The notes under the pieces are model-generated. The model saw nothing but the letters and a program-made list of their open reading frames with translations. It had not been told where the DNA came from and searched no databases. A program made the translations under genes and the position numbers. Of a DNA stretch of 49,587 nucleotides, positions 685-26,391 are shown piece by piece. The number at the start of each line of letters is the position of its first letter. The first letter of the stretch is position 1. The DNA is from Kandleria vitulina DSM 20405 (GTDB taxonomy: Bacteria > Bacillota_I > Bacilli_A > Erysipelotrichales > Coprobacillaceae): contig NZ_JNKN01000014.1 of assembly GCF_000702065.1 (NCBI RefSeq), positions 1-49,587 on the forward strand, read 5' to 3'.

Positions 685-1515
685 ATGCACATGTTAATTA
701 AAATCCCTATTGTGGATGTTTTCATCTATTTTATTTTCGTAATGATATTTGTTACTGCTATTCATTTCTATCGTAAGAAGAAAGGGAAAGCAAAGTATTC
801 ACTATTTACTAAAGCAATTCTGACTTTCTATTTTCTTTTATTGATTGATACCGCTATTCTTGGCTTTGAAGTTGCAACAGGAGAGATGTTACAAGAAATA
901 ATCAAAGAGAGTAGGGGATATTCATTTTTCCAATTCATACCTTTTTATTCAATCAAAACAGCATTTATTGAACCGCAATTGTGGGAATTTGCGGTTATTC
1001 AGAATGTTGGAAACATTCTTTTACTATTCCCGCTTGCCTATAGCATGAGAATATTAAAAGATATGTCCGCAAAAAAAGTATTTATAACTTGTCTTATTGT
1101 TGATATAGGAATAGAATTCATACAAATGATGACAAATATTATCACAAGAATACCAAGTCATATGGTAGACATTGATGATATCATCTTAAATATGACAGGT
1201 GTTGTATTGGCATTATTAGTAGCTAAAGTAACCTATAAATTTAAAGATTATTTCTTAGATATACTATTTGTTTATCCAGATCAAAGAAATACAACTCATG
1301 GAAAAATCAGCAAAAGATCTCAGATATTCTTAACAATGCTTATCATCTATTGTGGTTATCTTTTTATTGCGTGGGTTATAAGTATAATGGATTTTATATC
1401 TAAACCTTTCTTGTTGATGGTCTTATTAGCATTTACAATCATTATCATTCTTTATTTCTTGATATTTATTGCACCTCAATTTTTTTCTTCAAAACAAAAA
1501 ATTAAAGTGAAATAG
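685..1515 (+). CDS. VanZ-like membrane protein, copy 1
   Basis: 276-aa integral membrane protein with about six hydrophobic segments. The core around residues 112-170 (NILLLFPLAYSMR, then GIEFIQ, then DIDDIILNMTG) matches the VanZ-like family pattern of a Leu/Pro-rich helix, an IE-Q motif and a D-DD-ILN motif. Some VanZ-family members affect glycopeptide or lipoglycopeptide susceptibility; most have no known role. It belongs to a tandem pair: the next copy starts 989 bases later and shares about three quarters of its residues plus the upstream leader. The start at 685 has no SD and probably depends on the leader mini-ORF. Confidence 0.8.
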   Translation: MHMLIKIPIVDVFIYFIFVMIFVTAIHFYRKKKGKAKYSLFTKAILTFYFLLLIDTAILGFEVATGEMLQEIIKESRGYSFFQFIPFYSIKTAFIEPQLWEFAVIQNVGNILLLFPLAYSMRILKDMSAKKVFITCLIVDIGIEFIQMMTNIITRIPSHMVDIDDIILNMTGVVLALLVAKVTYKFKDYFLDILFVYPDQRNTTHGKISKRSQIFLTMLIIYCGYLFIAWVISIMDFISKPFLLMVLLAFTIIIILYFLIFIAPQFFSSKQKIKVK

Positions 1516-1673: not shown

Positions 1674-2507
1674 ATGTACAGATTAATTGGAATTTCATCG
1701 ATTGAAGGTATTTTTAACTGTTATGTTTTTTTGATGATAATCGTCACTGCTATTCATTTCTATCGCAAGAAGAAAGGAATAGCAAAGTATTCACTATTTA
1801 CTAAAGCAATTATGACTTATTATTTTCTTATCTTGTTTAATACTGCAATTTTTGGCTTTAAAGTTGCAACAGGAGAGATGTTACAAGATATAATCAAAGA
1901 GAGTAGGGGATATTCATTTTTTCAATTCATACCATTCTTTTCAATAAGATCAACGTATGAAGGAGCAGGGACATGGGAATATCCAACTATTCAGATTATA
2001 GGAAGTATTCTTTTATTATTCCCGCTTGCCTATAGCATGAGAATATTAAAAGATATGTCCGCAAAAAAAGTATTTATTACTTGTCTTATTATTAATGTAG
2101 GAATTGAATTCATACAAATGATGACAAATATTATCACAAGAATACCAAGTCATTGGGTAAACATTGATGATATCATCTTAAACATGACAGGCGTTGTATT
2201 GGCATTATTAGTAGCTAAAGTAACCTATAAATTTAAAGATTATTTCTTAGATATACTATTTGTTTATCCAGATCATCAAAATATAACTCATGGAAAAATT
2301 AGCAAAAGATCTCAGGAAATCCTAGCTATGCTTATTCTCTATTTTGGCTATATTCTTATTGCATGGGTTGTAAGTATAATGGAATTTAAATATGAATATT
2401 TCTTGAATATTTTATTGTTCGTATTTACGATCGGTATCGTTGTTTATTTCATGATATATATGGTACTTCCATTCATTTCTTCAAAACTAAAGATCAAACA
2501 CCAATAA
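1674..2507 (+). CDS. VanZ-like membrane protein, copy 2
   Basis: 277-aa tandem paralogue of the 685-1515 gene with the same VanZ core (LLLFPLAYSMR, GIEFIQ, NIDDIILNMTG) and about six membrane segments. It diverges from copy 1 mainly in the first 45 residues, around residues 88-105 and in the last 70 residues. From base 2286 to beyond the gene end the DNA is nearly identical to 7708-8092, downstream of the truncated third copy, which marks a recombination block. Ordinary terminator after the gene. Substrate or resistance role unknown. Confidence 0.8.
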   Translation: MYRLIGISSIEGIFNCYVFLMIIVTAIHFYRKKKGIAKYSLFTKAIMTYYFLILFNTAIFGFKVATGEMLQDIIKESRGYSFFQFIPFFSIRSTYEGAGTWEYPTIQIIGSILLLFPLAYSMRILKDMSAKKVFITCLIINVGIEFIQMMTNIITRIPSHWVNIDDIILNMTGVVLALLVAKVTYKFKDYFLDILFVYPDHQNITHGKISKRSQEILAMLILYFGYILIAWVVSIMEFKYEYFLNILLFVFTIGIVVYFMIYMVLPFISSKLKIKHQ

Positions 2508-2541
2508 GATGTGGCAGTCACAGACTGCTACATCTTTTATT
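2506..2541 (+). terminator. intrinsic terminator
   Basis: Hairpin AAGATGTGGCAGTC / GACTGCTACATCTT followed by TTAT, right after VanZ copy 2. The identical structure recurs at 7928-7963 in the other repeat copy. Confidence 0.8.
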
Positions 2542-2636
2542 GTATGAGACAATGATGTCTCATGCTATAATGCGTGTAATATGTCCTGTTTTTGTTATTG
2601 AGAAATAGATAAAGTATAAGCGAAAGGAGATAAACA

Positions 2637-2666
2637 ATGGATCAAAAAAAGATTGGTTTTTTTTAA
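2637..2666 (+). pseudogene. remnant of XRE regulator start
   Basis: With the same SD (GAAAGGAGA) as the intact XRE gene at 8059, this frame reads MDQKKIGFF and stops. It is the 5' stub of a duplicate of that regulator, cut off where the primase-helicase module begins. One base is missing in the T-run compared with the intact copy. Confidence 0.8.
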
Positions 2667-2698
2667 AGATATAATAAATAAAGAAGGAGATGAAATAG

Positions 2699-5386
2699 AT
2701 GAATCAGATAGAACGCTTGCAAGAAGAAAATAGAAAATTAAAAAGAGAAAATGAGAAATATAAAAGAATACTTATAGAACATAATCTTATTAATACAGAA
2801 GAAATTCCATTCTATCATAAAGAAGATAAACTAAGAATCTATAAAAATCTCTTTAAAGGAAGAGAAGATGTTTATGCTTTAAACTATAAAGAAACATTTT
2901 TTCCAGCCTGCAAAAATAGAATAAGCGGTAGATTATGTAAAAGAAAAAAGAATGGCAGCAAGTGGTGTCGTAAATGTAGTAATCAAAATTTTTCATCATT
3001 AACAGATTTCGTTCTATTGGATCATATATCAACATCTCATAAAAGAATAGGCTTGTATCCATTGTTGAAGGATAATACTTGTTTCCTCCTTGCCATTGAC
3101 TTTGATGAAGACGATTGGTTCAGTGCCATGCTTTCAGTCTATCGACTGGCCAAACGCTATGGTATCGATAGCGCCATGGAGCGTTCGTTTTCTGGTAATG
3201 GTGGGCATCTATGGTTTTTCTTTCAAGAACCGATCCCCGCATATATGGCTAGAATGTTTGGACGTACTCTTCTTAATGAAGCGATGAGGATTAATAAAGA
3301 TATCACTTATGAATCATATGATCGCTTATTTCCTGCTCAGGATACAATGCCCGAGGGAGGGTTTGGAAATCTTATTGCCTTGCCTTTTGCATTTGATGCT
3401 CTCATGAAAGGTAATGCTGTTTTTATTAACGAATATAATCAGAAGATTACTAAACAATTCTACTATTTAAGTACAATCAAAAAAATATTTACAAAGACTA
3501 TTGAGAACTATATTAATCAAAACAAAGAAATGACCTTAGAAAATCTTGATATCGATACAAATAATCTTAATACAATACATATCAAGAGAACAGGTATTCT
3601 CAAAATAGAAAAGAAAGGACTTAGTTCTCATACAATTCAATTTTTAAGAAAAATATCTTCTATGTGGAACCCTGAATACTTTAGAAAACAAAGAAATCAT
3701 GAACCTTTGTGGAAAGGAAATGGAGTTAGTGCCATTCTTAGTGAGTATGAAGAAACTGAAAATTATATTTATCTTCCAAGAGCGTTAGATGAAATTATAG
3801 AAGAACATACAAATATTATTTATGATGATCATATCTCTATAGGACATCCTATTGACGTTTCTTTTATTGGAAAACTTTATTCCTATCAACAAGAAGCCAT
3901 CACGAATGCTTTGAAGCATTCTATAGGCGTTATTAAAGCGCCTACTGGGTCTGGTAAGACCGTGATGGCATTAAACATCGTTGCTCAACTAAAAGTTTCT
4001 ACATTGATAATTTTAGGTAATACAGAACTTGCCAAACAATGGAAAAAGAGAATCAATGACTTCCTTGATTATCCTGATAAAGACAAAAAAAGAAATCAGT
4101 TTATTGGAGAATATTCCGGATCAAAAAAGAAAATGTTTGGCAATATTGATATTGCTTTAGTGCAATCATTAAGTCATTTAAAAGACAAAGAGATATTTGA
4201 AAGATATGGATTAGTCATAATTGATGAAGGACATCATAGTGCAAGTACGACATACAGAGAAACATTAAAGAATATTCCTGCAAAAAACATTTATTCCTTT
4301 ACCGCAACACCTGAAAGACAAGATGGACTAGATAAAATTGTAAGCATGTATCTAGGAAGAATCGTAAGCGAAGTACCGTTTGAAGTCATTAAAACATTAA
4401 GGCATTTCAAACAGATTCTCATTCCTAGATATACCACATTTACTTATCTCGATGAAGATCATGACTTTACTAATATTGTAAAAAAACTAGTAAACAATCA
4501 AAAAAGAAACAATGAAATTATTCAAGATGTTATCCATGAATACAATAAATCAAGAAATATCATTGTATTATCAGATCGTATTGAACACTTGGATTACCTT
4601 TATGAACGGATAAAACATATTACAATAAATTCATTCTTATTAACAGGTAAAACAAAAGTAAGAGAGAAAAATAGAATCATCGAAACAGTTAATCGATTAA
4701 AAGATGAAAACTATATTCTTCTTGCTTCCTACAAGTTGATAGGAGAAGGATTTGATCTACCAAGTCTAGAAACAATGTTCATGGCGTCTCCATTCTCATG
4801 GAAAGGGAGAACAAGTCAGTATATAGGTAGACTTCATCGTAATCATGAAGGAAAAGAAGTCATTAAAGTCTATGACTATGTAGATCGACATGTAGAAATG
4901 TTAAAACGAATGTATCAGAATAGATTAAAGGTCTATAGAAGTGAAGGATATGATATTCAAATTAACAATAATAAAATCATTTCACTTGAACGTTATCTTT
5001 ATGAATATGAAGAATATCAGAAAAACATGATCAATAATATATGTGCTGCTCATAATGAAATCGTCATTTCTTGTAATACTATCTATCTTTCCAGAATTAA
5101 ATCATACTATAAAATGATAGAAGGGTTGGTTATGAAAGGAATTCATGTTCACCTTTTTACTGATATAGAACTAACAAAAGAAATTATTTCATATTTACAC
5201 TCACTAGGAGTTCATTTAAGACATACATTACATCCATCCAATCTAGTCATTATAGATAAAAAGATAATTTGGCTAAGCAATAGTTCGTTCTTTGGATACC
5301 AGGATAAACTTGAACTTGCTTATAAACTTAACGATCCATCATTTGCGGAAGAACTACTAAGTAATTTGATTACATCAAATGTTTAG
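2699..5386 (+). CDS. AEP primase-SF2 helicase fusion (TOTE conflict-system type)
   Basis: 895-aa multidomain protein. Order: short N-terminal coiled coil (1-30); a Cys-rich knuckle (about 71-95, with CRKC); an archaeo-eukaryotic primase-like domain (about 100-260) with DFD at 134-136 and SGNGGH ending at His170; then an SF2 helicase with Walker A APTGSGKT (about 414-421), motif II DEGHH (509-513), motif III FTATP and motif VI QYIGRLHR; and a C-terminal ~110-residue segment resembling a degenerate phospholipase-D fold (VIIDKKIIWLSNSSFFG). This architecture is what Pfam groups as TOTE conflict-system primase-helicases, thought to act against invading DNA; the role here is inferred. Clear SD (AAGGAGATG). 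A SWIM-finger gene follows 107 bp downstream in the same direction. Confidence 0.85.
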   Translation: MNQIERLQEENRKLKRENEKYKRILIEHNLINTEEIPFYHKEDKLRIYKNLFKGREDVYALNYKETFFPACKNRISGRLCKRKKNGSKWCRKCSNQNFSSLTDFVLLDHISTSHKRIGLYPLLKDNTCFLLAIDFDEDDWFSAMLSVYRLAKRYGIDSAMERSFSGNGGHLWFFFQEPIPAYMARMFGRTLLNEAMRINKDITYESYDRLFPAQDTMPEGGFGNLIALPFAFDALMKGNAVFINEYNQKITKQFYYLSTIKKIFTKTIENYINQNKEMTLENLDIDTNNLNTIHIKRTGILKIEKKGLSSHTIQFLRKISSMWNPEYFRKQRNHEPLWKGNGVSAILSEYEETENYIYLPRALDEIIEEHTNIIYDDHISIGHPIDVSFIGKLYSYQQEAITNALKHSIGVIKAPTGSGKTVMALNIVAQLKVSTLIILGNTELAKQWKKRINDFLDYPDKDKKRNQFIGEYSGSKKKMFGNIDIALVQSLSHLKDKEIFERYGLVIIDEGHHSASTTYRETLKNIPAKNIYSFTATPERQDGLDKIVSMYLGRIVSEVPFEVIKTLRHFKQILIPRYTTFTYLDEDHDFTNIVKKLVNNQKRNNEIIQDVIHEYNKSRNIIVLSDRIEHLDYLYERIKHITINSFLLTGKTKVREKNRIIETVNRLKDENYILLASYKLIGEGFDLPSLETMFMASPFSWKGRTSQYIGRLHRNHEGKEVIKVYDYVDRHVEMLKRMYQNRLKVYRSEGYDIQINNNKIISLERYLYEYEEYQKNMINNICAAHNEIVISCNTIYLSRIKSYYKMIEGLVMKGIHVHLFTDIELTKEIISYLHSLGVHLRHTLHPSNLVIIDKKIIWLSNSSFFGYQDKLELAYKLNDPSFAEELLSNLITSNV

Positions 5387-5493
5387 AAAAATACTTTGAT
5401 TTCTATAAATAGTTATGAACTTAAATTATTAGCTTTATTAGACAATATTTACTCTCTCTAGTAAACTAATGTATAAGGCGAAAGGAGAAAAGT

Positions 5494-7125
5494 ATGGATT
5501 GGAAAAAACTATTTGCTCCTCAGATTCTAGGGAGAGGTTATGATTATTATTTAAAAGGTCGTGTAAATAATTTGGAAATATCTGATGATCAAATTTCTTC
5601 TACTGTTATAGGAGAAAATGTTTATAAAGTTAATATTTATTTAGATAATAATAAAATAAAAGATATGGAATGTAACTGTCCATATGCCAAAAGAGGTTAT
5701 AACTGTAAACACATGGCAGCAGTCTTATTTCACTATAGCAAAGGCCATTTGAAAGAAGACAATTATAATGATATACGCAAGTATCTTGATGAAGTAGATG
5801 ACCATACAATAAAAGATTACCTTGCACAAATACTACTAAATGATTCCAGACTACAAAATAATTTTTATATTCTAACAGGATATTATGAAAAACATATAAG
5901 TATAAAGCCATATATAGAACGCTTTAATGAAGTGTTTGAACATTATTCTAGTTATGATGATCAAATTCAAGATTATTACATGCCAGAATTCGTTGAGGAA
6001 ACAGAATTCACTGTTGATGATGCTTTCAAATTAATAGAGTATAAACATTATGATGAAGCTTTCTCTTTTATAAAATACATATATGAAAAAATATATGCGA
6101 TTATTTTTAGAGATGATACTGACTTCTTTATATATGATGAGTTATTAGAATATCTTGAAAAAATCATCGAAGTTGCGGATGAAGATCTAAAAGATAGTAT
6201 ATTTACATGGGCAATTCAAGAATTAGATGATGCACGTGATGAAGCAGAAGATTTTCTATATGATATAGTATTTAATAATTTCTATGAAGATGAATATCTT
6301 TATAGAAAAGCTGAATTTCTTAAACAAAAGGTCGCAACATTTCCACCAGCATTAAATCGTTTTCATTCTAACTTTTTATATTATCTTAAATGGACTATTA
6401 CCTATATACATATTATTGAAGAATGCCATGTCTCAATAGATGAGATTGAAAAGTTCTGTAGAACATATTGGGATATTAAGAAAATAAGAGATGAATTCCT
6501 TCACTATTGTAAAGAGTTAAAGGTTTATGACCATTTACTGCCATTATTAGATGAATGTATGAACTTAGAAAAAGATGATAAATTAAGTTTAATAGAATAT
6601 AGTGATATGAAAAAAGAAATCTTCTTATCACAATCTAACAAAGAAGCTTATAAGAAAGAATTATATGATCTTATTACGAAATATACTGCCGGAGATATTA
6701 GGTATTATAAGGAATTAAAGAATCAGTATTCTCCTGAAGAGTGGATAGATATAAGAGAAGATATATTCTTAGATCTTCATGATTATTCAGGAATAGCACA
6801 TCTATACGCAGAAGAGAAACTGTATGAACGTCTTATCAAGGTTATTAAAGATTCAGAAGATTTTTCTCTTATTAATGAATATGCATCAATCTTACAGAAG
6901 AATTATCATGATGAAGTTATGAACATATATGAAGATACATTAAACCGTATGGCTTATCTAGTACGAGGTAGAGATCGATATGTGGAATTAATAGAACAAC
7001 TTGAAAGACTAAAGACATTAGATCAAAGTGAAGATACAGTTATGAGAATTATTGCGAGCTGGAAACAGATGTACAAAAATAGAAAAGCTATGATGGAAGA
7101 ATTAAATAAATTCAGTATGAGATAA
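5494..7125 (+). CDS. SWIM zinc-finger protein
   Basis: 543-aa protein. The SWIM motif CxCx8CxH is intact at Cys60, Cys62, Cys71 and His73, within the usual N-terminal context (about 1-80; begins MDWKKLF, then GRGYDYYLKGRV). The remainder is an acidic, Tyr-rich, probably all-helical repeat region with no recognisable catalytic motif. In bacteria SWIM proteins often neighbour SNF2-type ATPases and are thought to bind DNA or protein; here the partner is the upstream primase-helicase (107-bp gap). Good SD (GAAAGGAG). I infer a two-gene module. Confidence 0.85.
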   Translation: MDWKKLFAPQILGRGYDYYLKGRVNNLEISDDQISSTVIGENVYKVNIYLDNNKIKDMECNCPYAKRGYNCKHMAAVLFHYSKGHLKEDNYNDIRKYLDEVDDHTIKDYLAQILLNDSRLQNNFYILTGYYEKHISIKPYIERFNEVFEHYSSYDDQIQDYYMPEFVEETEFTVDDAFKLIEYKHYDEAFSFIKYIYEKIYAIIFRDDTDFFIYDELLEYLEKIIEVADEDLKDSIFTWAIQELDDARDEAEDFLYDIVFNNFYEDEYLYRKAEFLKQKVATFPPALNRFHSNFLYYLKWTITYIHIIEECHVSIDEIEKFCRTYWDIKKIRDEFLHYCKELKVYDHLLPLLDECMNLEKDDKLSLIEYSDMKKEIFLSQSNKEAYKKELYDLITKYTAGDIRYYKELKNQYSPEEWIDIREDIFLDLHDYSGIAHLYAEEKLYERLIKVIKDSEDFSLINEYASILQKNYHDEVMNIYEDTLNRMAYLVRGRDRYVELIEQLERLKTLDQSEDTVMRIIASWKQMYKNRKAMMEELNKFSMR

Positions 7126-7158
7126 AACGTGACAGTCATAAGACTGTCACGTTTACTT
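7126..7158 (+). terminator. intrinsic terminator
   Basis: Perfect hairpin AAACGTGACAGTC / GACTGTCACGTTT with loop ATAA directly after the SWIM gene stop; marks the end of the two-gene module. Confidence 0.85.
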
Positions 7159-7411
7159 TAAATGGTACAAGAAGCATCAAATTGCTTATTATATAATTAG
7201 TAGAATAGAAAATAGAATGCAAGCCTATTAATCTATGACATATAAAACTCCTTTTTTGTAAAGTCTTTAATTATCTAAAGATAAAAACAGATGGTGTAAG
7301 GATGTGATAGTAGTTTCCATCGTATACAAGAATTATTTTTTATTGCTTTATAAATAAGCTTTCTTATTGTTTTAGATAACTATCCTTAGATCTTCTTGTA
7401 GTATCAAATCT
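7159..7411. other. intergenic junction, no gene seen
   Basis: AT-rich, without an open frame of note. The right boundary is where similarity to the VanZ genes starts (TTCAGAATG at 7412). I find no inverted repeats, integrase site or tRNA that would explain how the module entered. Confidence 0.5.
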
Positions 7412-7929
7412 TTCAGAATGTTGGAAACATTCTTTTTTTATTCCCGCTTGCCTATAGCATGAGAATATTAAAAGATATGTCCGTGAAAAAAGTATTTATA
7501 ACTTGTCTTATTATTGATATAGGAATAGAATTCACACAAATGATGACAAATATTATCACAAGAATACCAAGTCATATGGTAGACATTGATGATATCATCT
7601 TAAACATGACAGGCGTTTTATTGGCATTATTAGTAGCTAAAGTAACCTATAAATTTAAAGATTATTTTTTAGATATACTATTTGTTTATCCAGATCAAAG
7701 AAATACAACTCATGGAAAAATTAGCAAAAGATCTCAGGAAATCCTAGCTATGCTTATTCTCTATTTTGGCTATATTCTTATTGCATGGGTTGTAAGTATA
7801 ATGGAATTTAAATATGAATATTTCTTGAATATTTTATTGTTCGTATTTACGATCGGTATCGTTGTTTATTTCATGATATATATGGTACTTCCATTCATTT
7901 CTTCAAAACTAAAGATCAAACACCAATAA
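7412..7929 (+). pseudogene. VanZ-like gene copy 3, 5'-truncated
   Basis: Similarity to the other VanZ copies begins abruptly in codon ~111 of the family; the first ~110 residues, the leader mini-ORF and the promoter are absent, and an in-frame TAG lies just upstream. The rest is open to the normal stop; an internal ATG at 7459 could give a 156-aa product, but no SD is visible. It is a mosaic: up to about 7707 it follows copy 1 (HMVDIDD, DQRNTTHGK), after that it is identical to copy 2. Probably non-functional. Confidence 0.85.
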
Positions 7930-8092
7930 GATGTGGCAGTCACAGACTGCTACATCTTTTATTGTATGAGACAATGATGTCTCATGCTATAATGCGTGTA
8001 ATATGTCCTGTTATTGTTATTGAGAAATAGATAAAGTATAAGCGAAAGGAGATAAACAATGGATCAAAAAAAGATTGGGTTATTTTTAAAGA
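7708..8092 (+). repeat. ~385-bp direct repeat, right copy
   Basis: Partner of 2286-2669. In this copy the XRE gene continues intact beyond the repeat, so this is probably the original arrangement and the left copy the duplicate. Confidence 0.9.
7928..7963 (+). terminator. intrinsic terminator
   Basis: Same hairpin as at 2506-2541 (AAGATGTGGCAGTC stem), at the end of the truncated VanZ copy. Confidence 0.8.
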
Positions 8093-8577
8093 CTTTAAGA
8101 AAAGAAAAATCACTTACACAAGAAGAGCTTGCTTGTCAGGTAGGTGTTTCTCGTCGCAGTGTTTCTCGCTGGGAAACAGGAAACAATATGCCAGATTTAG
8201 ATATTCTTTTAGAGTTAGCTGATTTTTATGAAGTGGATATTCGTGAACTTTTGGATGGTGAAAGGAGAAGAGATCATATGAATAAAGAGACAGAGGAAAC
8301 TGTTTTAAAGGTTGCGGATTATATGAATGAAGAAACAATAAAAAATATGAGACGTATTCATGTGTGGTTTATTTTAGCGTTAATACTTGATGTGTTTTAT
8401 CTTATTTCACTATTTATTGAACCATCAGATCCAAGTCCAATATTTGAATTTGTTCAGGGATTTTGTGTAGGTGTCTCTATCGCCATGATTTTTATTGGTG
8501 TTCTTATTACCAACAATAAAGAAAATAAATTAATGAACTTCAAGAAACGTATTTTAATGAAATTGAAATCTCAATAA
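8059..8577 (+). CDS. XRE-family regulator with C-terminal membrane segments
   Basis: 172 aa. Residues 6-61 form a classic helix-turn-helix (LRKEKSLTQEELACQVGVSRRSVSRWE, interrupted here: the recognition helix is VSRRSVSRWETG). After a linker, residues ~96-145 contain two hydrophobic helices (WFILALILDVFYLISLFI and a second one near FCVGVSIAMIFIGVL), so the regulator is likely membrane-tethered, a common layout in Firmicutes. SD GAAAGGAGA at good spacing. It is the downstream neighbour of VanZ copy 3 and its own start region is duplicated at 2637. It may regulate the VanZ-like genes (inference). Confidence 0.85.
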   Translation: MDQKKIGLFLKTLRKEKSLTQEELACQVGVSRRSVSRWETGNNMPDLDILLELADFYEVDIRELLDGERRRDHMNKETEETVLKVADYMNEETIKNMRRIHVWFILALILDVFYLISLFIEPSDPSPIFEFVQGFCVGVSIAMIFIGVLITNNKENKLMNFKKRILMKLKSQ

Positions 8578-16600: not shown

Positions 16601-16653
16601 AAAGATAACACAAAAAAGATATGGGGTGGGCCCATATCTTTTTCGTGTTATTT
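16601..16653. terminator. bidirectional terminator
   Basis: Long hairpin with arms AACACAAAAAAGATATGGG and CCCATATCTTTTTCGTGTT (a few unpaired bases), A-rich on one side and T-rich on the other, between convergent genes. Confidence 0.85.
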
Positions 16654-18678
16654 TACTTTAACTGTTTTTATAGTTGACCAGTTTCCATTTACTTTACCAT
16701 TAACACCACATACTTTAATCTGGTATTTCTTTTTTGATTTTAGTTTTTTGATAACCAATGATAATTTTTTAGTTGTTTTGTATTTCCAAGATTTTGATTT
16801 TTTTAGCTTATATGCAATTTTATATGTTTTTGCATTACTTGCTTTATTCCATGAAATAGTGATCTTCTTTTTACCGGCTGAAGTTTTTCTGATTGATATT
16901 TTTTCTACATGAATAGATGCTCTTTTTTTAGAAAATGAGATGACAGGAGAAGTTTTTAATTTAAATCTTACTTGAATTGCATTACTTGAATTAGATGACC
17001 AAGTTGTTGAATTAGTAAATTTATAATAATTAACAGCTTTCTTATTTTGATAAATATAACCAATGTACCATGCATAAGATCTAGGACTAGTATGGCTACT
17101 GTCACCACAACATTCATGAATACATTTTCCATAGTTCGTAGTACCAGGCCAATACAAATATACGTATTCGTGCCCATTATCTGTTCCTCTTTTAAAGACT
17201 GTCATGTTTGTAGAAATTTCATCACGATGATTAAATTTACTTGTTTTTTCATAGTTTGAATAAATTCCTTCAGTTGGCCCACACCAATGGAAATAATAAA
17301 ATCCTACCTGGACTCTTGTTTCAGATGTAGTTAGCTTATTATCGCTTCTATATGTTCCACCACTATTTACATATTCAGTTTTTACTAGACCAGCATTAGT
17401 CCAATTAGCCCCTGGAGAACTCGTCGAGATTTTTTCTTCTTTATTTAAATACTCAATGGTATATTGATTTTTATTTACATAAGTTGGTAATACTGGAGCA
17501 TATGTCCATCCATCAGATTTCTTTGTAGTTTTCGGATTAATGTATGTTGATGGAGCAGTAGCTGAGGTACAATTTCCCTGTTTATCATAGATGTAAATGT
17601 GAGTATTGTAGTTTCCATATTCATTTTTATGATCGGTAATATTTACTCTGTAACTGTATGTGTTGCCATTAACTGTTCCTCTTGCTGAAGTATTTGTCAT
17701 CCAATTTGGTTGAATATCATCCTGAAAATTATAGCTTGTCCAAGTAGGAAATTGTACTCGATCAATTCCACTTCTATCAGTAGCTGTACAACTTACTGTA
17801 TACCCTGATTCAGAAACATTACTTATTTTAATGTTTGATACCGTTGGATTTGTTCTATCAACATATGCAGATGGACTTCCTGGCTGATATGATGCAACAT
17901 TTCCTGCATTATCATAAGCATAAATATGTGTAGAATAATATCCTTCTTCATTATTATGATCAGACGCCTTTACACGGAAAGTCCAAGTATTTCCGCTTTG
18001 AGAACCTCTTATTGATGTATTTGTAGACCAGTTAGAAGCTAAATCATCTTGACCTTTATAAACAGTCCAAGTTGGAAACTGAACTCTATTAATTTTATTG
18101 CCGCCTGTAACGGTACATGAAACCGTGTATCCGTCTCTAGATATAGCAGTAACTTTTACATTTGTTATAGAAGGTTTAGCTGTTGATCCTGAAGAGAAGT
18201 TAGGACGGATGACACCCCAATAAGGTGTATAATTATTTATATAGCTCGGGCTATTATATGCAAAAGTCTTTTTTTGTACTATTTGCACATTATTATAGTT
18301 TTGATGATAACTGATATTTGCAGATTCAGCAATTGCAACATGACCATATGATCCGCCTGGACCTGCTGAATAAACTAATATATCTCCCTTTTGTGGAACA
18401 GCACCTTTTATTCTTGACCAACCACTAGGTAATGCATTTGTTGCATAATCTTTTGCATTACCAGGAACACGTGAAACACCTAGAAAATCATAATAGTAAC
18501 AAATTAAACTTACACATTGACCTGTGCCTACTTTTTGTCCAACCTTTGATTTCACCCAATTAATAGCCTCATCAGCAGTTTTAGAAGTTGCATGAACACT
18601 AATTATTTTTGAATTGAGAGTTATAGAGAATAACATCATTATAACTATAGATAATCTAAAAATCTTTCTTTTAATCAT
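16648..18678 (-). CDS. secreted CHAP-domain hydrolase with GBS-Bsp-like repeats and FN3
   Basis: 676 aa. Signal peptide 1-30. Residues ~35-160 form a CHAP amidase/endopeptidase domain with nucleophile Cys55 (GTGQCVSL) and His113 (YGHVAIAES). Two GBS-Bsp-like repeats follow (~170-275 and ~276-375: VQFPTW, QDD, HIYAYD / HIYIYD). Next is a unique Cys/Trp-rich segment (~395-570, with HECCGDSSH), then a C-terminal fibronectin-III-like domain (~580-676) that is Lys-rich. It is likely exported and acts on, or binds to, peptidoglycan. Preceded by a -35/-10 pair with an ACCATATGGT palindrome, as for the related gene at 21301. Confidence 0.85.
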   Translation of the reverse strand: MIKRKIFRLSIVIMMLFSITLNSKIISVHATSKTADEAINWVKSKVGQKVGTGQCVSLICYYYDFLGVSRVPGNAKDYATNALPSGWSRIKGAVPQKGDILVYSAGPGGSYGHVAIAESANISYHQNYNNVQIVQKKTFAYNSPSYINNYTPYWGVIRPNFSSGSTAKPSITNVKVTAISRDGYTVSCTVTGGNKINRVQFPTWTVYKGQDDLASNWSTNTSIRGSQSGNTWTFRVKASDHNNEEGYYSTHIYAYDNAGNVASYQPGSPSAYVDRTNPTVSNIKISNVSESGYTVSCTATDRSGIDRVQFPTWTSYNFQDDIQPNWMTNTSARGTVNGNTYSYRVNITDHKNEYGNYNTHIYIYDKQGNCTSATAPSTYINPKTTKKSDGWTYAPVLPTYVNKNQYTIEYLNKEEKISTSSPGANWTNAGLVKTEYVNSGGTYRSDNKLTTSETRVQVGFYYFHWCGPTEGIYSNYEKTSKFNHRDEISTNMTVFKRGTDNGHEYVYLYWPGTTNYGKCIHECCGDSSHTSPRSYAWYIGYIYQNKKAVNYYKFTNSTTWSSNSSNAIQVRFKLKTSPVISFSKKRASIHVEKISIRKTSAGKKKITISWNKASNAKTYKIAYKLKKSKSWKYKTTKKLSLVIKKLKSKKKYQIKVCGVNGKVNGNWSTIKTVKVK

Positions 18679-18701
18679 ATAAAATCATCCTTTCTATAGT
18701 T

Positions 18702-18746
18702 ATTATAACTATTAACAAAGTAGGGGAGCAAGAACTACCATATGGT
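18702..18746 (-). promoter_or_regulatory. promoter plus palindromic operator, CHAP gene
   Basis: Read on the minus strand: palindrome ACCATATGGT (18737-18746), five bases, TTGCTC (18726-18731), 18 bases, TATAAT (18702-18707). The spacing is identical upstream of the 21301 gene. Confidence 0.65.
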
Positions 18747-18957
18747 TGCATAAAATTATTTGACTATTTTTTGACAATCGATCTATGCGAGAATTTCGAA
18801 AATCATTTAACTTATTTTTTAACTTATGTAAAGTATTATTCAAAGATTATTTTTTTCTAAAACACAATTTTAATGGAAAGAAACGTCATATTTAAGTAAA
18901 ATAAAAATAGATAAGGGACATGGCATATTAAAAGATCAATAAGAAATGAGGGATAAT

Positions 18958-19401
18958 ATGAAAAGAAAACTATTAAAAGTAATGTCGGTTATTGTTTGTC
19001 TCTTTATGCTTTCAGTATGCGTTAATAATGTAGATGCTGCTTCTACAAGATATTATTCAGTATTGAATCAAGGTGTTAAGACATTTAAGAAGAGCGGACG
19101 CAAACTGACTGTTAAAACGAAAAAATATTATAAGATTGCCTACTATAAAAAAAATAATATGGCAAAAGTTAAATATGTCGGTTATTCAAAGAAGTTTAAG
19201 TTAAGTAAAAAGTGTAAGTATTATTGGGCTGCAATTGCAGGATATAATCGTTTATACGATAAGAAATACATGAAGAAGACGACTTTCTCAAATATTAAAT
19301 CATCTATTATTAAAGCTAGACAGTACGATTCTTGGGAATTCAGAATTGTATTTGTAGTAAAGAATGGTGTAGTTACTAAAGTACTTGCAGTATCTGCATA
19401 A
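18958..19401 (+). CDS. small Lys/Tyr-rich secreted protein (family member B)
   Basis: 147 aa from ATG 18958; the upstream in-frame ATG at 18946 precedes the SD (GAGGG) and is not used. Signal peptide cleaved after VDA. Same block order as the 16172 protein: FKKSGRKLTVKT, IAYYKKNN, FKLSKKCKYY, IKSSI and VVKNGVVTKVLAV. Monocistronic, followed by two hairpins. Function unknown. Confidence 0.75.
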   Translation: MKRKLLKVMSVIVCLFMLSVCVNNVDAASTRYYSVLNQGVKTFKKSGRKLTVKTKKYYKIAYYKKNNMAKVKYVGYSKKFKLSKKCKYYWAAIAGYNRLYDKKYMKKTTFSNIKSSIIKARQYDSWEFRIVFVVKNGVVTKVLAVSA

Positions 19402-19413
19402 ATTAAATTGCTT

Positions 19414-19491
19414 AAAACGGAGCTAATCCCCCCTTCCCAAGCTCTGTTTTAATATAATGATAAGCGGAACAGAAATGTTCTGCTTTTTTTT
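19414..19491 (+). terminator. two terminator-like hairpins
   Basis: The first (19414-19450, AAAACGGAGCT / AGCTCTGTTTT) and the second (19463-19491, AGCGGAACA / TGTTCTGCT plus T8) lie in tandem after the 18958 gene. Confidence 0.7.
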
Positions 19492-19500
19492 GGAAAAAAT

Positions 19501-19551
19501 CGCAACTGTTTGGTAGCATTGTCAAAAAATGGTAAACTTTTATTAAGGGTA
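19501..19551 (+). promoter_or_regulatory. 51-bp conserved promoter element, zinc-ribbon gene
   Basis: It contains ACTGTTTGGT (19505-19514), then TTGTCA (19519-19524), 16 bases and TATTAA (19541-19546). The whole block differs at only three positions from 22971-23021, upstream of a different gene. The first motif resembles the ACCATATGGT palindrome upstream of the two minus-strand hydrolase-like genes and sits at nearly the same distance from the -35 box. Confidence 0.65.
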
Positions 19552-19586
19552 ATAATTAAATTGATAATAAAAGGGAAGTGAATTAT

Positions 19587-21254
19587 ATGAAATGCTTAAA
19601 ATGTGGAAAGACGTATGATGACAAATTAAACTTCTGTCCATTTTGTGGAGAAAAGTCTCATGTAGTACAAGATAATATTGAGATGGATAATAATTATGGT
19701 GGTACACTTAACCGTATTCTCAATATTATTTGCAGTAAAACTGTATTATCTGCTATTTGCGTAGTAGCTGGTGGATTATTAGCGTTGTCATTTATCAAAG
19801 TATCATCATTTCAATCATATCTTGAAACAGAAGAAATCTCAGAACCATTTAAAGTGTTAAAGGCAGCATCCAATAGCATTAGCTCTATACCAAGATATTT
19901 TGATTGGTCAAAATATTTAAGCATATATGTTTTTGTTGTTTCACTAGTTAATGCAATTAGAAAAAAAGAAATAGATTATATTGTGTTATCATCTTTAAGT
20001 GCACTGAATGCTTTTGTATTGATCATTAATTCAAAAACAGTCAGTATATTAAAGCAGATTATGAATCTTGATTTATCATCATTATATAGTTCTTTCTATT
20101 TCTTTTCTTCTAATGAGTCTGCTTATAGACTTTTAAAAAATCCAGATCGATTAGTACAAGGTATTCAAGGAGAAGCAGGTTTTGGAATACTTTTTCTTAT
20201 TGCTGCTGTTCTTATGTTCATTTTCTATTTGAATCAGCCTCACAAGTATGAAAAGTTTAATTTTAAATATTTAGAGACTATTCAAAAGACAGTATCTAAT
20301 AAATACGAAGATTTAAAAAGCGAACAAGCAAAGCTGAATAGTAAAGCTAGCTGTGCAAAGTGTGGTCGAACATTAGATGTGGATATGAAATTTTGCCCTT
20401 CATGTGGAGAACCAGTAACAATTGAAGAGCATAAAAACTATTGCAAAAAATGTGGTAAAGAGTTTGCAAAAGATATGAATTTTTGCCCATATTGTGGGCA
20501 AAAGGCAGAGAGGGTAAAGAAACTTGTAGATACACAAGCTATGAGAGAAGAACTCTTAAGAAGAAATGGTAAAAAGCTTTGTAAAAAATGTGATAAAGCA
20601 TTTAATATAGAAATGAACTTTTGTCCATTTTGTGGTGAAAAGTATGAAATACAAAGTGAGAATAATACAATAAGGTTCGCTGGTGATAAGTTTAAGGAAA
20701 GTCCATTTTTTAAGAATTACTATGTGCAGTTATTTACTCAAGTTAAACTATTATCTAAAATCGGTATTATAGTAGGTGCACTATTATCGGGAACCCTTGT
20801 TTTGGTATTTGGAATCAGTAATGCTATGAGCACGGAATCTATTTCATCTACATTTGAAAGCATGAAAGCTTTTATTAATGTATGTAAGATTGTACCGGTT
20901 GTCTACTATATCTCTTTAATTGCATGTTGTTTTGTTTGTATTTTTGCGATTGTTAATTTACTTAAGGAAATAGAGATAAAGGTATTTATATTAGCTCTAG
21001 TGACAGGTATCAATTCACTGTTGCTTTTAGGAAGTATGAATACTATAAAATTAATATCAGGATTGTATTCATTAGATTTATCAGATGCAATGGAAGGTGA
21101 TATTTCTTCATCTTTAGTTAACAGTGCTGGTAGATTTATACAAGATCCAGAGCAAGCGATGAAAGATTTAACAATTGCTTTCGGTTTTGGATTCATTCTT
21201 TTAGGCTATTGCATTTATCTACATATTCAATGTAAAAAGAATAATTCCCAATAA
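19587..21254 (+). CDS. multi-pass membrane protein with four zinc ribbons
   Basis: 555 aa from ATG 19587 (SD AAGGGAAG; the GTG nine bases earlier lies too close to it). A CxxC-x10-14-CPFCG ribbon at the N-terminus is followed by about four membrane helices (~45-220). Three more ribbons come next (CAKCGR/CPSCGE, CKKCGK/CPYCGQ, CKKCDK/CPFCGE, ~250-360), then four more helices (~385-545). The second half is similar to the N-terminal membrane part of the 24361 protein (GIIVGALL, PxxYYISLIACCFVCIFAIVN, then SLDLSDxxxG), showing internal duplication. Cytoplasmic metal-ribbon sensors or scaffolds are plausible; no function known. Confidence 0.75.
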   Translation: MKCLKCGKTYDDKLNFCPFCGEKSHVVQDNIEMDNNYGGTLNRILNIICSKTVLSAICVVAGGLLALSFIKVSSFQSYLETEEISEPFKVLKAASNSISSIPRYFDWSKYLSIYVFVVSLVNAIRKKEIDYIVLSSLSALNAFVLIINSKTVSILKQIMNLDLSSLYSSFYFFSSNESAYRLLKNPDRLVQGIQGEAGFGILFLIAAVLMFIFYLNQPHKYEKFNFKYLETIQKTVSNKYEDLKSEQAKLNSKASCAKCGRTLDVDMKFCPSCGEPVTIEEHKNYCKKCGKEFAKDMNFCPYCGQKAERVKKLVDTQAMREELLRRNGKKLCKKCDKAFNIEMNFCPFCGEKYEIQSENNTIRFAGDKFKESPFFKNYYVQLFTQVKLLSKIGIIVGALLSGTLVLVFGISNAMSTESISSTFESMKAFINVCKIVPVVYYISLIACCFVCIFAIVNLLKEIEIKVFILALVTGINSLLLLGSMNTIKLISGLYSLDLSDAMEGDISSSLVNSAGRFIQDPEQAMKDLTIAFGFGFILLGYCIYLHIQCKKNNSQ

Positions 21255-21298
21255 AAAAAGATCAATCAGTAGTTACTTTACTGATTGATCTTTTATAG
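21253..21298. terminator. bidirectional terminator
   Basis: Hairpin AAAAGATCAATCAGTA / TACTGATTGATCTTTT between the convergent 19587 and 21301 genes. Confidence 0.9.
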
Positions 21299-21300
21299 TC

Positions 21301-22821
21301 TTATTTAGTCTTAACGGTCTTAGTTGAAGAGAATGCGCTACTACTCTTATTGTAGGCACGGATTTTTACTTGGTATTTCTTTTTCTTTTTTAAGTTTTTG
21401 ATAGTATAAGCTGTCTTAGAACAACGTTTCTTAGACCATTTTTTCTTTCCAGTTAGTTTATACCAGACTTCATATTTTGCATTAGTGACTTTGTTCCATC
21501 TTGTACTAATAGATTTTTTCTTACCTTTTGCAAAACGCCAAACTACAGAATTGATTGTATAAGTCTGTGGAGATACTTTTTTTGGAACAACCGGTTTTGG
21601 TTTAGGGACACCTTTGACAACAGTGAAGTTAACCCAATTGCCCATTGTAAAGTTTTCTCCATGTTCAAAATTCACAGAGCAAATAAAAGCAGAATATTGT
21701 CCTTCAGGTAATGTAATAGAATAGTTAGTACTCTTGATATGATGTTCATATTTATAAAGATTCTTACCTAGATAAATACGTAAATCATAATGACCGGTAT
21801 TCTTTGTAGCAGTCCAATTAAAGCGAGTTGGTTCATAACTTGTTCCTGCATTGACAGATAATGTCGATTTAGAAGGTGCTTCATGTAACGTTACAATAGG
21901 ACAACCATAAACTTGATAGTTTCCAGCTTTATCATAAGCATAAATATGAGTGTAATAATTTCCACGTTCATTGTTATGAGCAGAAATATAAACAGTGAAA
22001 CTATAAGTATTACCGTTCTTAGAACCACGTACACTTGTATTTGTCCACCAAGATGAAGCAAGATCATCCTGACCTTTATTTCCAGTCCAAGTAGGGAACT
22101 GTACGCGATCAATGCCTACGTTATCTGTTGCTGTACATGAAACAGTATAGCTTGAAGAAGTGATATTTGTAATTTTTACGTTAGAAATAACTGGCTTTGT
22201 AGTATCAGTATTATTGATAGAGTCATAATTGCTGGCACGTTTAAAATAGGAAATGTTAGCTTTATAATAATTTTTTTCAAATCCATTCCATCTTATTTCA
22301 CAGTTTCTATGTGCACCATATCCACTTAGATTACATTCTACAACTCTGATTGCATTACCATTAATAGAATACACAATTGCTGAATGTCCAAAATTAAATC
22401 TTACGAAATCACCTACTCTAAGATTAGCGGTATCCGTTCTTTTACCGAGTTGTGAAACTCTTTGACCAAATACTCTATTGAATATTCTCTTTGCAAAACC
22501 ATCACATTGCATACCACCATCAAAGTAGTTACAATCGTATTTTTGTGATGGGACATTGGACATCTTATGTGAATAGCAACAAGTTGTTGTAACAGAGTCT
22601 GCGTAGCTTTCATTCCTGTTTTTTACTAAAGCATCACCAGTATTGCTTGAGTTTGTAACCTTGTGATTCCAGAACCTTCCACTAGGATACGCTGATTTAA
22701 GACTTTCAAGTTTATTATAGACCCCCGAAGCAGCTTGAGAATTATTCACTTGATTCATTATTATTAGTGAGCATGTCATCACAATTGCTATAAAGAAGCT
22801 AAAAAATCTTCTTTTCATCAT
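21301..22821 (-). CDS. secreted cysteine-hydrolase-like protein with GBS-Bsp-like repeat and FN3
   Basis: 506 aa. Signal peptide about 1-31. Residues ~95-200 resemble a CHAP/NlpC-type papain fold, with a likely nucleophile Cys106 (MQCDGFAKRIF) and His146 (FGHSAIVYSI). One GBS-Bsp-like repeat follows (~208-310; VQFPTWTGNKGQDD, HIYAYD), then an Ig/FN3-like domain (~315-405) and a second Lys-rich FN3-like domain at the C-terminus (~420-506). It is a shorter relative of the protein at 16648, and both lie on the minus strand under matching promoters. Probably an exported wall-active enzyme; the substrate bond is not predictable from sequence. Confidence 0.8.
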   Translation of the reverse strand: MMKRRFFSFFIAIVMTCSLIIMNQVNNSQAASGVYNKLESLKSAYPSGRFWNHKVTNSSNTGDALVKNRNESYADSVTTTCCYSHKMSNVPSQKYDCNYFDGGMQCDGFAKRIFNRVFGQRVSQLGKRTDTANLRVGDFVRFNFGHSAIVYSINGNAIRVVECNLSGYGAHRNCEIRWNGFEKNYYKANISYFKRASNYDSINNTDTTKPVISNVKITNITSSSYTVSCTATDNVGIDRVQFPTWTGNKGQDDLASSWWTNTSVRGSKNGNTYSFTVYISAHNNERGNYYTHIYAYDKAGNYQVYGCPIVTLHEAPSKSTLSVNAGTSYEPTRFNWTATKNTGHYDLRIYLGKNLYKYEHHIKSTNYSITLPEGQYSAFICSVNFEHGENFTMGNWVNFTVVKGVPKPKPVVPKKVSPQTYTINSVVWRFAKGKKKSISTRWNKVTNAKYEVWYKLTGKKKWSKKRCSKTAYTIKNLKKKKKYQVKIRAYNKSSSAFSSTKTVKTK

Positions 22822-22854
22822 ATTAATTCATCCCTTTCATACTTTCCTAAAGTC

Positions 22855-22899
22855 ATTATAAACAAGAAAATCGCAGGTATTCAAGAACAACCATATGGT
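22855..22899 (-). promoter_or_regulatory. promoter plus palindromic operator, 21301 gene
   Basis: Minus strand: ACCATATGGT (22890-22899), five bases, TTGAAT (22879-22884), 18 bases, TATAAT (22855-22860). Geometry identical to the promoter at 18702-18746. Confidence 0.65.
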
Positions 22900-22970
22900 A
22901 GCAAAAAATATTTTGACTGTTTTTTGACAATGATAAAATATTTGAATTTCAATTATTTTTTTAAAAACAC

Positions 22971-23021
22971 CGCAACTATTTGGTAGCACTGTCAAAAAAT
23001 GGTAAACTTTTGTTAAGGGTA
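22971..23021 (+). promoter_or_regulatory. 51-bp conserved promoter element, second copy
   Basis: Same block as 19501-19551, with ACTATTTGGT (22975-22984), CTGTCA (22989-22994), 16 bases and TGTTAA (23011-23016). It lies 31 bases before the ATG at 23053 and back to back with the minus-strand promoter at 22855-22899. Confidence 0.65.
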
Positions 23022-23052
23022 CAAATATAAATTTAAGAAGGGAGAAATAATT

Positions 23053-23652
23053 ATGCTAAAAAGGATAATTATTTGTTTTGTCTGTATATTTATGATGGGA
23101 GTAAGTATGACTAGTGTTCAGGCAAAACGTAATCATTGGAAGACTGAGTATATCAAATTTATTAATAAGATTGAAAATGAAAAACGTAAGACACATGCAA
23201 CTGAAAAAATAAGATATTTATTATTAGATATTAATAAGGATTCAATCCCTGAATTATTTATCGAAAATGATGTTTGGCTTACAGATTATAGAAGAAGTGA
23301 TATTGTGGTAACGAGTAATAATAAAAAAATCGATACCCTATATTTTAATTTGTTAATAAGTGATCTTAGATATATTCCAGGTAAGAATAAAATCTATAAT
23401 CAATATTTTTATAAGTTCATTGGCTTTGATTACATTATTTCTGTAAAAAAAGGTAAGTTTAAAGTTACTGGCGGTATGTATCCATATAGTGAAGAAGCAA
23501 CTTTAAAACATTATGAATGGAATAATAAAAAGGTCTCTAAGAAAACATATAAAAAGAAATTAAAAGCTGCATTTAATAAGAAAAAGAGTAGAAAGATTAG
23601 AGGAAAATTTGTTTCAGCAGCAAAGATTAAGAAGCGTATTAGAGCATATTAA
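23053..23652 (+). CDS. secreted basic protein, 199 aa
   Basis: Signal peptide cleaved after VQA (about 24). Contains LLLDINKDSIPELFI (~56-70), which matches the D-x-N/D-x-D Ca-loop-like strand found in many secreted Firmicute proteins with an 'integrin-like' start. The C-terminal 60 residues are very Lys-rich. SD AAGGGAG. Probably first gene of a run 23053-27606 with only short gaps and no clear terminator. Function unknown. Confidence 0.7.
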   Translation: MLKRIIICFVCIFMMGVSMTSVQAKRNHWKTEYIKFINKIENEKRKTHATEKIRYLLLDINKDSIPELFIENDVWLTDYRRSDIVVTSNNKKIDTLYFNLLISDLRYIPGKNKIYNQYFYKFIGFDYIISVKKGKFKVTGGMYPYSEEATLKHYEWNNKKVSKKTYKKKLKAAFNKKKSRKIRGKFVSAAKIKKRIRAY

Positions 23653-23666
23653 GGAAGGTGTGTTTT

Positions 23667-24305
23667 ATGAAGAAATATTTAATTGTGATTTTATCTATGT
23701 TAATGATGACGTTATCTATGAATAACGTGAATGCATTATCTTATAAATATAAAAAGATAGATTATACGTATCATTATCGCGGAAGAACTTTTACAAAATA
23801 CTATACAAAAGTATTGGTAAAAGGACACTCAAAGAGAATTAAAAAGATCAGAGCATACTTAAAGAAAATTGATAAAAGAGATCAGACTAAAGTCAATAAA
23901 TCAATGAGCAATGCTGAATTTAGACAAGACTCGTATGACTGGTGGGATAAAAGCAATGTTAGAGTTACAAAGAATACAAAGTCTATTTTCAGTATTTGTC
24001 GAACAAATGATTCTCACTTTGGAGGAGTAGCCAATAGGTATTACTATGGATATACATTTAATAAGAAAGGAAAATTATTAAAGCTTTTTGATGTTACAAA
24101 AGGGAAAAAAGCGTGTGTTTTAGTAAGTATTAAAAATGCTCTTCTCAAAGAGGGAATAAATGGTTCAAGTATAAGAAACTATATTAGTCATCCTAATAAG
24201 ATTCAGTTTTATGTTAATGGTCATAAGGTTTATGTATGTATTGCATCATATGAAGTGGATCAGGGAACAAGACCAATCAAATTTGCTTTAAAGAGCAAGT
24301 ATTAA
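23667..24305 (+). CDS. secreted DUF3298/RsiV-like protein
   Basis: 212 aa from ATG 23667, chosen because SD AAGGAAGG (23651-23658) is correctly spaced; the GTG at 23658 overlaps it. Signal peptide cleaved after VNA. Residues ~105-205 (DSHFGGVANRYYYGYTFNKK, LFDVTKG, FYVNGHKVYVCIASYEVD) resemble the C-terminal domain of DUF3298 proteins, the group that includes lysozyme-binding RsiV and deacetylase PdaC. The SD overlaps the previous stop codon, so it is in an operon with 23053. The ligand-binding role is inferred. Confidence 0.6.
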   Translation: MKKYLIVILSMLMMTLSMNNVNALSYKYKKIDYTYHYRGRTFTKYYTKVLVKGHSKRIKKIRAYLKKIDKRDQTKVNKSMSNAEFRQDSYDWWDKSNVRVTKNTKSIFSICRTNDSHFGGVANRYYYGYTFNKKGKLLKLFDVTKGKKACVLVSIKNALLKEGINGSSIRNYISHPNKIQFYVNGHKVYVCIASYEVDQGTRPIKFALKSKY

Positions 24306-24360
24306 TTGTATATCAAGGAAATGAATATTATATTTTTTAATAAAAGAGAGGGTGATTTTT

Positions 24361-25878
24361 ATGAAATGTGCGAAGTGTGGAAAGGAGTTTAATGGGTCTA
24401 CTAATTTTTGCCCCTACTGCGGTAGTAAAGTAGAAAAGCAAAACAAGTCTATTAATAATGATCAGCAAAAGGAAACAAAAAAATTTTCGTTGGTGAGAGA
24501 GTTTAGCAATGTAAAGCAGCTATCAATATGTGGGATGATAGTAGGTGCTTTATTATTATTTATCATTGTCTATTTAAAAGGAATTAGTGGTTCCATTTCT
24601 TCTAACTCTCTTTCTGATAGTATGAGTAGTATTTCTTCAGCTATTCAATCATTAAAATTAATACCACCTTGTTATTACATAGCAATGGTACTTTGTCTTT
24701 ATGTTTGTTTTTTTTCAATTATTAATACGAGAAAACATAAAGATATCAAGACTACAATATTAGCAGGATTAAGCGGTATTAATGTTTTATTGCTTATTAT
24801 TAATTTTAAAACGATAAGCACAATTCAATCATTGCTATCGTTGGATTTATCAGATGTATTTAGTGGAAAAATATCATCAGGATTAGTCTCGGATGCCTAT
24901 AATATCTTAAAAAATCCGGAAGAAACTGTAAATTCTCTTATTTTAGCATTAGGGTTTGGGGCTGTTATTCTCGCTTACTCTATTTATCTATTTGTTACTT
25001 ATTATAAGAAAGAGCAACAAACATATGAGACTATTTCTTTGAATTCATTGAAGAAAACAAATGCCGCTAATAAAAAAGACACCCTTAGTTTTACAAGAAA
25101 ACAAAAAACAATTGGTTGCTTAGTTATAGGATTATTATTGGCAATGGGTATTGGTTATTACATATGGGATGATTATTTAAATTATACCAATATTGATCTA
25201 GCTAAGAATATCAACTTGTCATATAAAGGAATATCTGGAGAAGCTTATATTGATGATGTGACTAATAATGTTGAATATGATAAAAGCAATAAGGAAATTG
25301 CTGATTTTGTTAATAGTATCGAGTATAACTATTCAAAAGATGAGAACTTGGAAAACGGAGACAGTGTTACTGTTACTACTGTTTACAATAAAGATACTGC
25401 TGATAAATTAAAGTTACATGTCACAAGTGCTTCAAAAGTGATTAAAGTTGAAAATCTTATTCATAGATTCAAAGAAGCAAAAGAAGTTCCAAAGGATACT
25501 ATCGCACTAATTAAAGATAAGGCTTTAACATATCTAAAGAATGAGTATACAAATGATTACTATGAAACATATCGATTCTCATATTGTGGAACATACCTTG
25601 TGAAATATAACAAGAAAGATTCACTTGTAGCGGTATTTAAAGATAATCATACTTCAAAAGATTATTATGACACAGTAACGACTTCTACAGATTATTACTA
25701 CTATGAAATCACGAATGTAAATTCTGATTTAAATAATGAAACATTTGGTAACTATTCTACATATAAGTCAATGCTGAAAGATAATGAAGATGAATACATT
25801 AAAAGAGATGATGATATAGCATCTTCTTTACATAATATTAATTCAGAAATTACGGAAGATGTTATCGAAGTAGATTAA
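24361..25878 (+). CDS. zinc-ribbon membrane protein with 'IDLAKN' ectodomain
   Basis: 505 aa from ATG 24361 (SD GAGAGGGTG; the upstream GTG overlaps it). N-terminal zinc ribbon (CAKCGKEF...CPYCG), four hydrophobic helices (~45-215) like those of the 19587 protein, a linker, then a fifth helix (~250-272) and an ectodomain (NIDLAKNINLSYKGISG, VEYDKSNKEI, NGDSVTVTTVYN) shared with the 10068 protein. The tail is Tyr/Asp-rich. It is a fusion of modules found separately in two other genes of this window. Function unknown. Confidence 0.75.
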   Translation: MKCAKCGKEFNGSTNFCPYCGSKVEKQNKSINNDQQKETKKFSLVREFSNVKQLSICGMIVGALLLFIIVYLKGISGSISSNSLSDSMSSISSAIQSLKLIPPCYYIAMVLCLYVCFFSIINTRKHKDIKTTILAGLSGINVLLLIINFKTISTIQSLLSLDLSDVFSGKISSGLVSDAYNILKNPEETVNSLILALGFGAVILAYSIYLFVTYYKKEQQTYETISLNSLKKTNAANKKDTLSFTRKQKTIGCLVIGLLLAMGIGYYIWDDYLNYTNIDLAKNINLSYKGISGEAYIDDVTNNVEYDKSNKEIADFVNSIEYNYSKDENLENGDSVTVTTVYNKDTADKLKLHVTSASKVIKVENLIHRFKEAKEVPKDTIALIKDKALTYLKNEYTNDYYETYRFSYCGTYLVKYNKKDSLVAVFKDNHTSKDYYDTVTTSTDYYYYEITNVNSDLNNETFGNYSTYKSMLKDNEDEYIKRDDDIASSLHNINSEITEDVIEVD

Positions 25879-25897
25879 TAATAAAGGAGATGAAACA

Positions 25898-26365: not shown

Positions 26366-26391
26366 TATATTAAATGAAATGAGGAATTAAT

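Follow-up and report, generated by a model that had tools for sequence, protein, structure and literature searches.

TOTE systems (for TPR, OB, TBP, Effector) are named as conflict systems in PMC12458937, with reference to Aravind, Iyer et al. 2022. The window (i.e. the whole 49,587-nt stretch of DNA that was analysed, constituting one entire contig of the 2.13-Mb genome of a gut bacterium) encodes a protein resembling the TOTE AEP-helicase effectors (PF22548), with an AEP-TOTE domain, an SF2 helicase, a PLD-like C-terminus and an accessory distribution; it differs from them in its degenerate PLD motif and in having a SWIM/solenoid neighbour. An active PLD (HxK) nuclease C-terminus is present in part of the TOTE family. 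TPR-OB and TBP partner genes were not recognised among the neighbours of the window helicase, which are VanZ, SWIM, XRE and OmpA-family genes.

The N-terminal region of the SWIM protein matches PDC-S62 (E 8.5e-16), a SWIM single-gene defence candidate of PADLOC-DB, although only ~150 residues align. At the locus L055 an SF2 helicase gene likewise adjoins a SWIM gene, but that helicase is of a different family (DUF3427), and the SWIM gene following it lies ~3 kb from the TOTE helicase of the locus.

Defence genes under the control of autoregulated HTH repressors are known. The window resembles these in that a gene for an XRE-type repressor with its own putative operator lies close to the cassette, but here the operator-promoter would derive from segmental duplication of an unrelated VanZ-XRE locus. 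Each part of the cassette is of a known kind, and the helicase and SWIM genes are not a conserved pair.

Architecture of the repeats and the cassette

The genes are arranged in the order VanZ1, VanZ2, XRE stub, helicase, SWIM, VanZ3 fragment and XRE. The features are as follows.

685..1515, + strand: VanZ1, intact VanZ-like gene, first in the tandem array (PF04892, E 2.6e-13)
1674..2507, + strand: VanZ2, intact VanZ-like gene with its 3′ end within the left repeat (PF04892, E 1.1e-11)
2019..2669, + strand: left direct repeat, 651 bp, 97% identical to the right copy; near-identical core at 2285-2656
2506..2536, + strand: terminator-like hairpin, left copy
2544..2571, + strand: promoter-like site with extended -10 (ATGAGA-16-TATAAT, TG before the -10) ahead of the helicase, a consensus match only
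2545..2562: operator-like palindrome TGAGACA-ATGA-TGTCTCA, left copy
2637..2666, + strand: XRE stub of nine codons (MDQKKIGFF, then stop), aligning in sequence with the start of XRE
2699..5386, + strand: TOTE-type AEP primase / XPB-like SF2 helicase with a degenerate PLD-like C-terminus, 895 aa
5494..7125, + strand: protein with SWIM zinc finger and TPR-like alpha-solenoid, 543 aa
about 7413..7929, + strand: VanZ3, 5′-truncated, a chimera of VanZ1-like and VanZ2-like parts
7441..8092, + strand: right direct repeat, 97% identical to the left copy; near-identical core at 7707-8078
7928..7958, + strand: terminator-like hairpin, right copy
7966-7993: putative XRE promoter, right copy of the promoter-like site
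7967..7984: operator-like palindrome, right copy, inside the XRE promoter
8059..8577, + strand: intact XRE-family regulator, 172 aa (HTH_3, E 8.7e-16)

The C-terminus of XRE contains hydrophobic segments, as judged from its sequence. The tandem paralogues VanZ1 and VanZ2 (685-2507) are ~990 bp apart. Elsewhere in the window (16648-27606) zinc-ribbon proteins (19578-21254, and 26392-27606 with a YARHG domain) are encoded near proteins with CHAP and GBS Bsp-like repeats. No RNA families or tRNAs were found in the window.

An earlier note on this DNA described a helicase and SWIM module bracketed by direct repeats of ~385 bp. The module is indeed so flanked; the length given corresponds to the near-identical core (372 bp with a single mismatch, at 2591), while the full repeat is longer, at 651 bp. 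The stub of XRE lies in the left repeat and the intact gene follows the right one, as that note had also stated. The copies are offset by 5422, the two longest stretches without a difference being 306 and 65 nt. The only further match of the repeat in the genome is VanZ1, and upstream of the core the repeat consists of homology between VanZ paralogues. On the left side there is a full VanZ2 and a truncated XRE, and on the right a truncated VanZ3 and a full XRE. Two aspects extend the earlier description: the array contains a 5′-truncated VanZ on the right and two intact paralogues ahead of the cassette, and what appear to be a terminator, a promoter and an operator-like palindrome are present in the repeat.

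From 7413 to 7706 the right copy is closer to VanZ1 (284/294 identical) than to VanZ2 (272/294), whereas every base between 7707 and the VanZ stop matches VanZ2 (223/223). VanZ3 is therefore a chimera of VanZ paralogues, and so conversion or recombination inside the array is part of its history.

When the two core copies are joined in silico, 5,422 bp are lost and VanZ2 and XRE come out intact, which bears out the excision geometry put forward earlier. RecA-type recombination between the 372-bp cores could thus delete the cassette; the geometry is observed, and the event itself we infer. We propose that the TOTE-type primase-helicase and SWIM/solenoid cassette was inserted into a tandem VanZ-XRE array, which would leave the end of VanZ, the terminator, the promoter/operator of XRE and the first XRE codons on both sides. 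The arrangement would fit either integration by a single crossover, or tandem duplication of VanZ-XRE with the middle replaced by the cassette, and to judge from the sequence gain and loss of the cassette is plausible.

Near-identical cores of this kind could in principle cause misassembly, with wrongly joined flanks and the cassette residing elsewhere or on a circle. The core exceeds the length of short reads and contains just one mismatch, and exchange of arms at the core would generate VanZ2-XRE plus a circle. However, the copies have distinct flanking differences, the helicase start has its own ribosome-binding site 33 bp past the stop codon of the stub, and the alternative arrangement would itself be the excised form. 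We consider such an artefact very improbable.

A putative operator-promoter ahead of the cassette

Within the repeat the terminator-like hairpin is followed by the promoter-like site, with the palindrome located in the spacer between the -35 and -10 elements. The promoter-like site and its copy are the two best-scoring sites of this type in the region. The only two mismatch-free occurrences of TGAGAC-N6-GTCTCA in the whole genome are those at 2545 and 7967. Relaxation to TGARACA-N4-TGTYTCA adds two sites, on contigs C4 and C6; both are within ORFs and were discarded as targets. If two mismatches are allowed, 1.4 palindrome sites are expected by chance in the window, so that the case for an operator rests on the exact match, its position in the promoter and its conservation.

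Corresponding motifs are found beside related regulators. Two other genera (L221 and L224) have an exact AGACA-N4-TGTCT 99-101 bp ahead of their XRE homologues, and in a third (L220) the motif is present at this distance with one mismatch; the homologues with the motif are 46-50% identical to the XRE of the window. Shuffling of the upstream regions (300 trials) gave motifs of the quality seen in L221, L224 and L220 in 0, 0 and 1% of cases. The motif was not found upstream of several other XRE homologues (those of genus g12, and L222, L223, L225 and L226). Pairing of VanZ with XRE was not found at the XRE homologues read in other genera.

We infer that the palindrome is the operator of XRE itself, a copy of which now lies ahead of the helicase. 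A duplicate of the operator-promoter of XRE apparently precedes the cassette, and this copied promoter is the most likely start of cassette transcription. Since it carries the putative XRE operator, XRE should control the cassette in trans in the same way as it controls itself, on the evidence of the sequence and the comparative motif. An XRE-regulated unit would have an operator-like site in the promoter of the genes under control, and one is present in the putative promoter of the cassette. Of the new points, this seemingly duplicated control region tells the most.

The helicase and SWIM proteins

The AEP-TOTE primase domain of the helicase is clear (PF22548, E 1.7e-72, 244 bits against a cut-off of 27), and the same protein contains an SF2 helicase (ResIII and Helicase_C domains) with an XPB-like fold. 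The AlphaFold model (pLDDT 84.0) agrees with an XPB-like core. The primase catalytic residues D134, D136 and H170 are invariant in 17 homologues, and the helicase motifs GSGKT and DE-HH are retained. Of the proteins with solved structures, XPB helicases are closest in sequence to the core and 7nqd, a CRISPR-associated primase-polymerase, to the AEP domain. The C-terminus matches PADLOC MkoB, a PLD protein. At the PLD-like site the window has HPSNLVIID, compared with HQKFAIID and HQKFAVID in the homologues L080 and L086. Because HxK is missing from this domain, as it is from that of the closest relatives, the PLD-like domain is probably not a nuclease. The helicase has an intact primase site and an XPB-type ATPase core, and its probable substrate is foreign or abnormal DNA.

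The SWIM protein comprises an N-terminal SWIM finger and a long alpha-solenoid (model pLDDT 85.8). Foldseek matches of the solenoid are TPR-like (E about 2e-4) with low TM-scores, so that the C-terminus is TPR-like by fold only. Homologues of the same length, 21-33% identical, are present in other genera of the organism's own family, two of these cases being tandem arrays with no helicase. Arrays of five copies or fragments of the SWIM/solenoid gene in tandem are found in two species belonging to one genus (L175:7067-13542 and L179:1433-8023), which suggests rapid diversification.

It had been suggested that the helicase and SWIM protein form an undescribed two-component system. In the window the genes are on the same strand, separated by 107 bp, with a probable shared promoter. 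The pair was sought in the organism's own family (43 genomes), the phylum (392 genomes), the family of genome G190 (273 genomes) and 80 named loci across bacteria, and 107 helicase loci, including a few duplicates between collections, were scanned with the SWIM-family profile. The contig positions of TOTE matches in 34 genomes (some of them in the first set) were additionally compared with SWIM matches in the same 273 genomes, and this revealed no further adjacency. Same-strand adjacency was found at only one other of ~125 TOTE loci, belonging to a different family (L174:9689-11388). There the SWIM gene, directly upstream of an intact TOTE helicase, is interrupted by an in-frame TGA and disrupted by a frameshift. 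At L115 the neighbouring 803-aa SWIM protein is on the opposite strand. No SWIM gene adjoins the closest homologues of the helicase (43-50%), and SWIM homologues are found without the helicase. One or two adjacencies is slightly above chance, an excess that the sharing of defence neighbourhoods by these genes would lead one to expect. The suggested system was thus not borne out, and we rejected a conserved pair, which over the own-family, phylum, G190-family and all-bacteria sets amounts to a single decayed case. The adjacency at L174 and a 321-aa gene family that adjoins both helicase and SWIM genes in relatives argue the other way, and a dedicated two-component defence system is in our view unlikely.

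Members of this 321-aa 'KELR' family and of a 264-aa family (L177:4873-8686, L178:3555-6674, L055:10360-12135, L059:5624-7287) accompany SWIM genes in some genomes, and a TOTE helicase with Wadjet in others. Neither has a match in Pfam or PADLOC. The 321-aa family, lying beside both types of gene, is a loose link between them.

In other bacteria it was not SWIM genes that recurred beside the helicase but AlbA_2-like and Fic-like ones, identified by their sequence. An AlbA_2-like gene lies directly 3′ of a shorter TOTE helicase at L123, L124, L126, L129, L134, L135, L137 and L140, mostly in Bacteroidota, and is a candidate for the real partner of that subfamily.

The SWIM protein of the window would then be co-transcribed cargo, not a conserved obligate partner, and is probably another nucleic-acid- or protein-binding gene of defence islands. 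Since SWIM genes also stand alone or in tandem away from helicases, a defence role for it is weakly supported.

Distribution and significance

Within the organism's own family, 12 of the 20 genera have matches to the protein, in some cases restricted to its helicase part, and the nearest relatives with the gene include Thomasclavelia and Stoquefichus. Relatives occur in 318 plasmid records, in 37 of which the match covers at least 80% of the protein. An E. coli homologue annotated as TOTE matches 1,714 of 5,426 E. coli genomes at any length, and 681 over at least 80% of its length. The helicase family is thus patchy and located on mobile or accessory DNA, fitting an accessory cassette of defence type. 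At L055 a relative of the helicase is in the same neighbourhood as Wadjet JetA, and at L176 a SWIM relative is close to SspB-, BrxP/SspD- and Mrr-like genes. Viral contigs gave remote helicase matches only, and carriage by a phage is therefore not indicated.

No integrase, transposase or terminal inverted repeats were recognised (genes of 0-11 kb scanned), and no other defence gene among the window genes scanned. For this reason the cassette does not conform to the usual type of defence island or mobile element; its flanking repeats are direct and composed of host genes, not those of a transposon or integrative element.

The lack of a second defence gene would also suit a more neutral origin, i.e. 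that the helicase and SWIM genes were trapped by tandem duplication of VanZ-XRE, without defence, regulation or a cycle of gain and loss; the genes may then serve DNA repair or be heading for loss. The existence of VanZ1 and VanZ2 indicates that tandem duplication takes place at the locus in any case, VanZ3 combines parts of different paralogues, and the helicase core resembles the repair helicases XPB and RadD. Against this, the two genes have long, uninterrupted reading frames and conserved motifs, and the helicase family has the behaviour of accessory or mobile genes, with defence genes nearby in relatives. We regard neutral carriage as a tangible possibility, if a doubtful one.

Our judgement is evenly balanced on whether this is an accessory, excisable, defence-type two-gene cassette under a captured XRE regulator, the reading we prefer. 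A fuller version, in which capture of the operator-promoter created an XRE-controlled, reversibly excisable defence unit and the SWIM/solenoid protein replaces the lost helicase nuclease as target-recognition or effector partner, seems to us distinctly unlikely.

The combination of helicase plus SWIM should not enter lists of defence systems on the strength of this locus. If the preferred reading is correct, an incoming gene of defence type would gain immediate control by a repressor through duplication of the repressor's own promoter, and the same duplication would provide a clean route to loss of the cassette.
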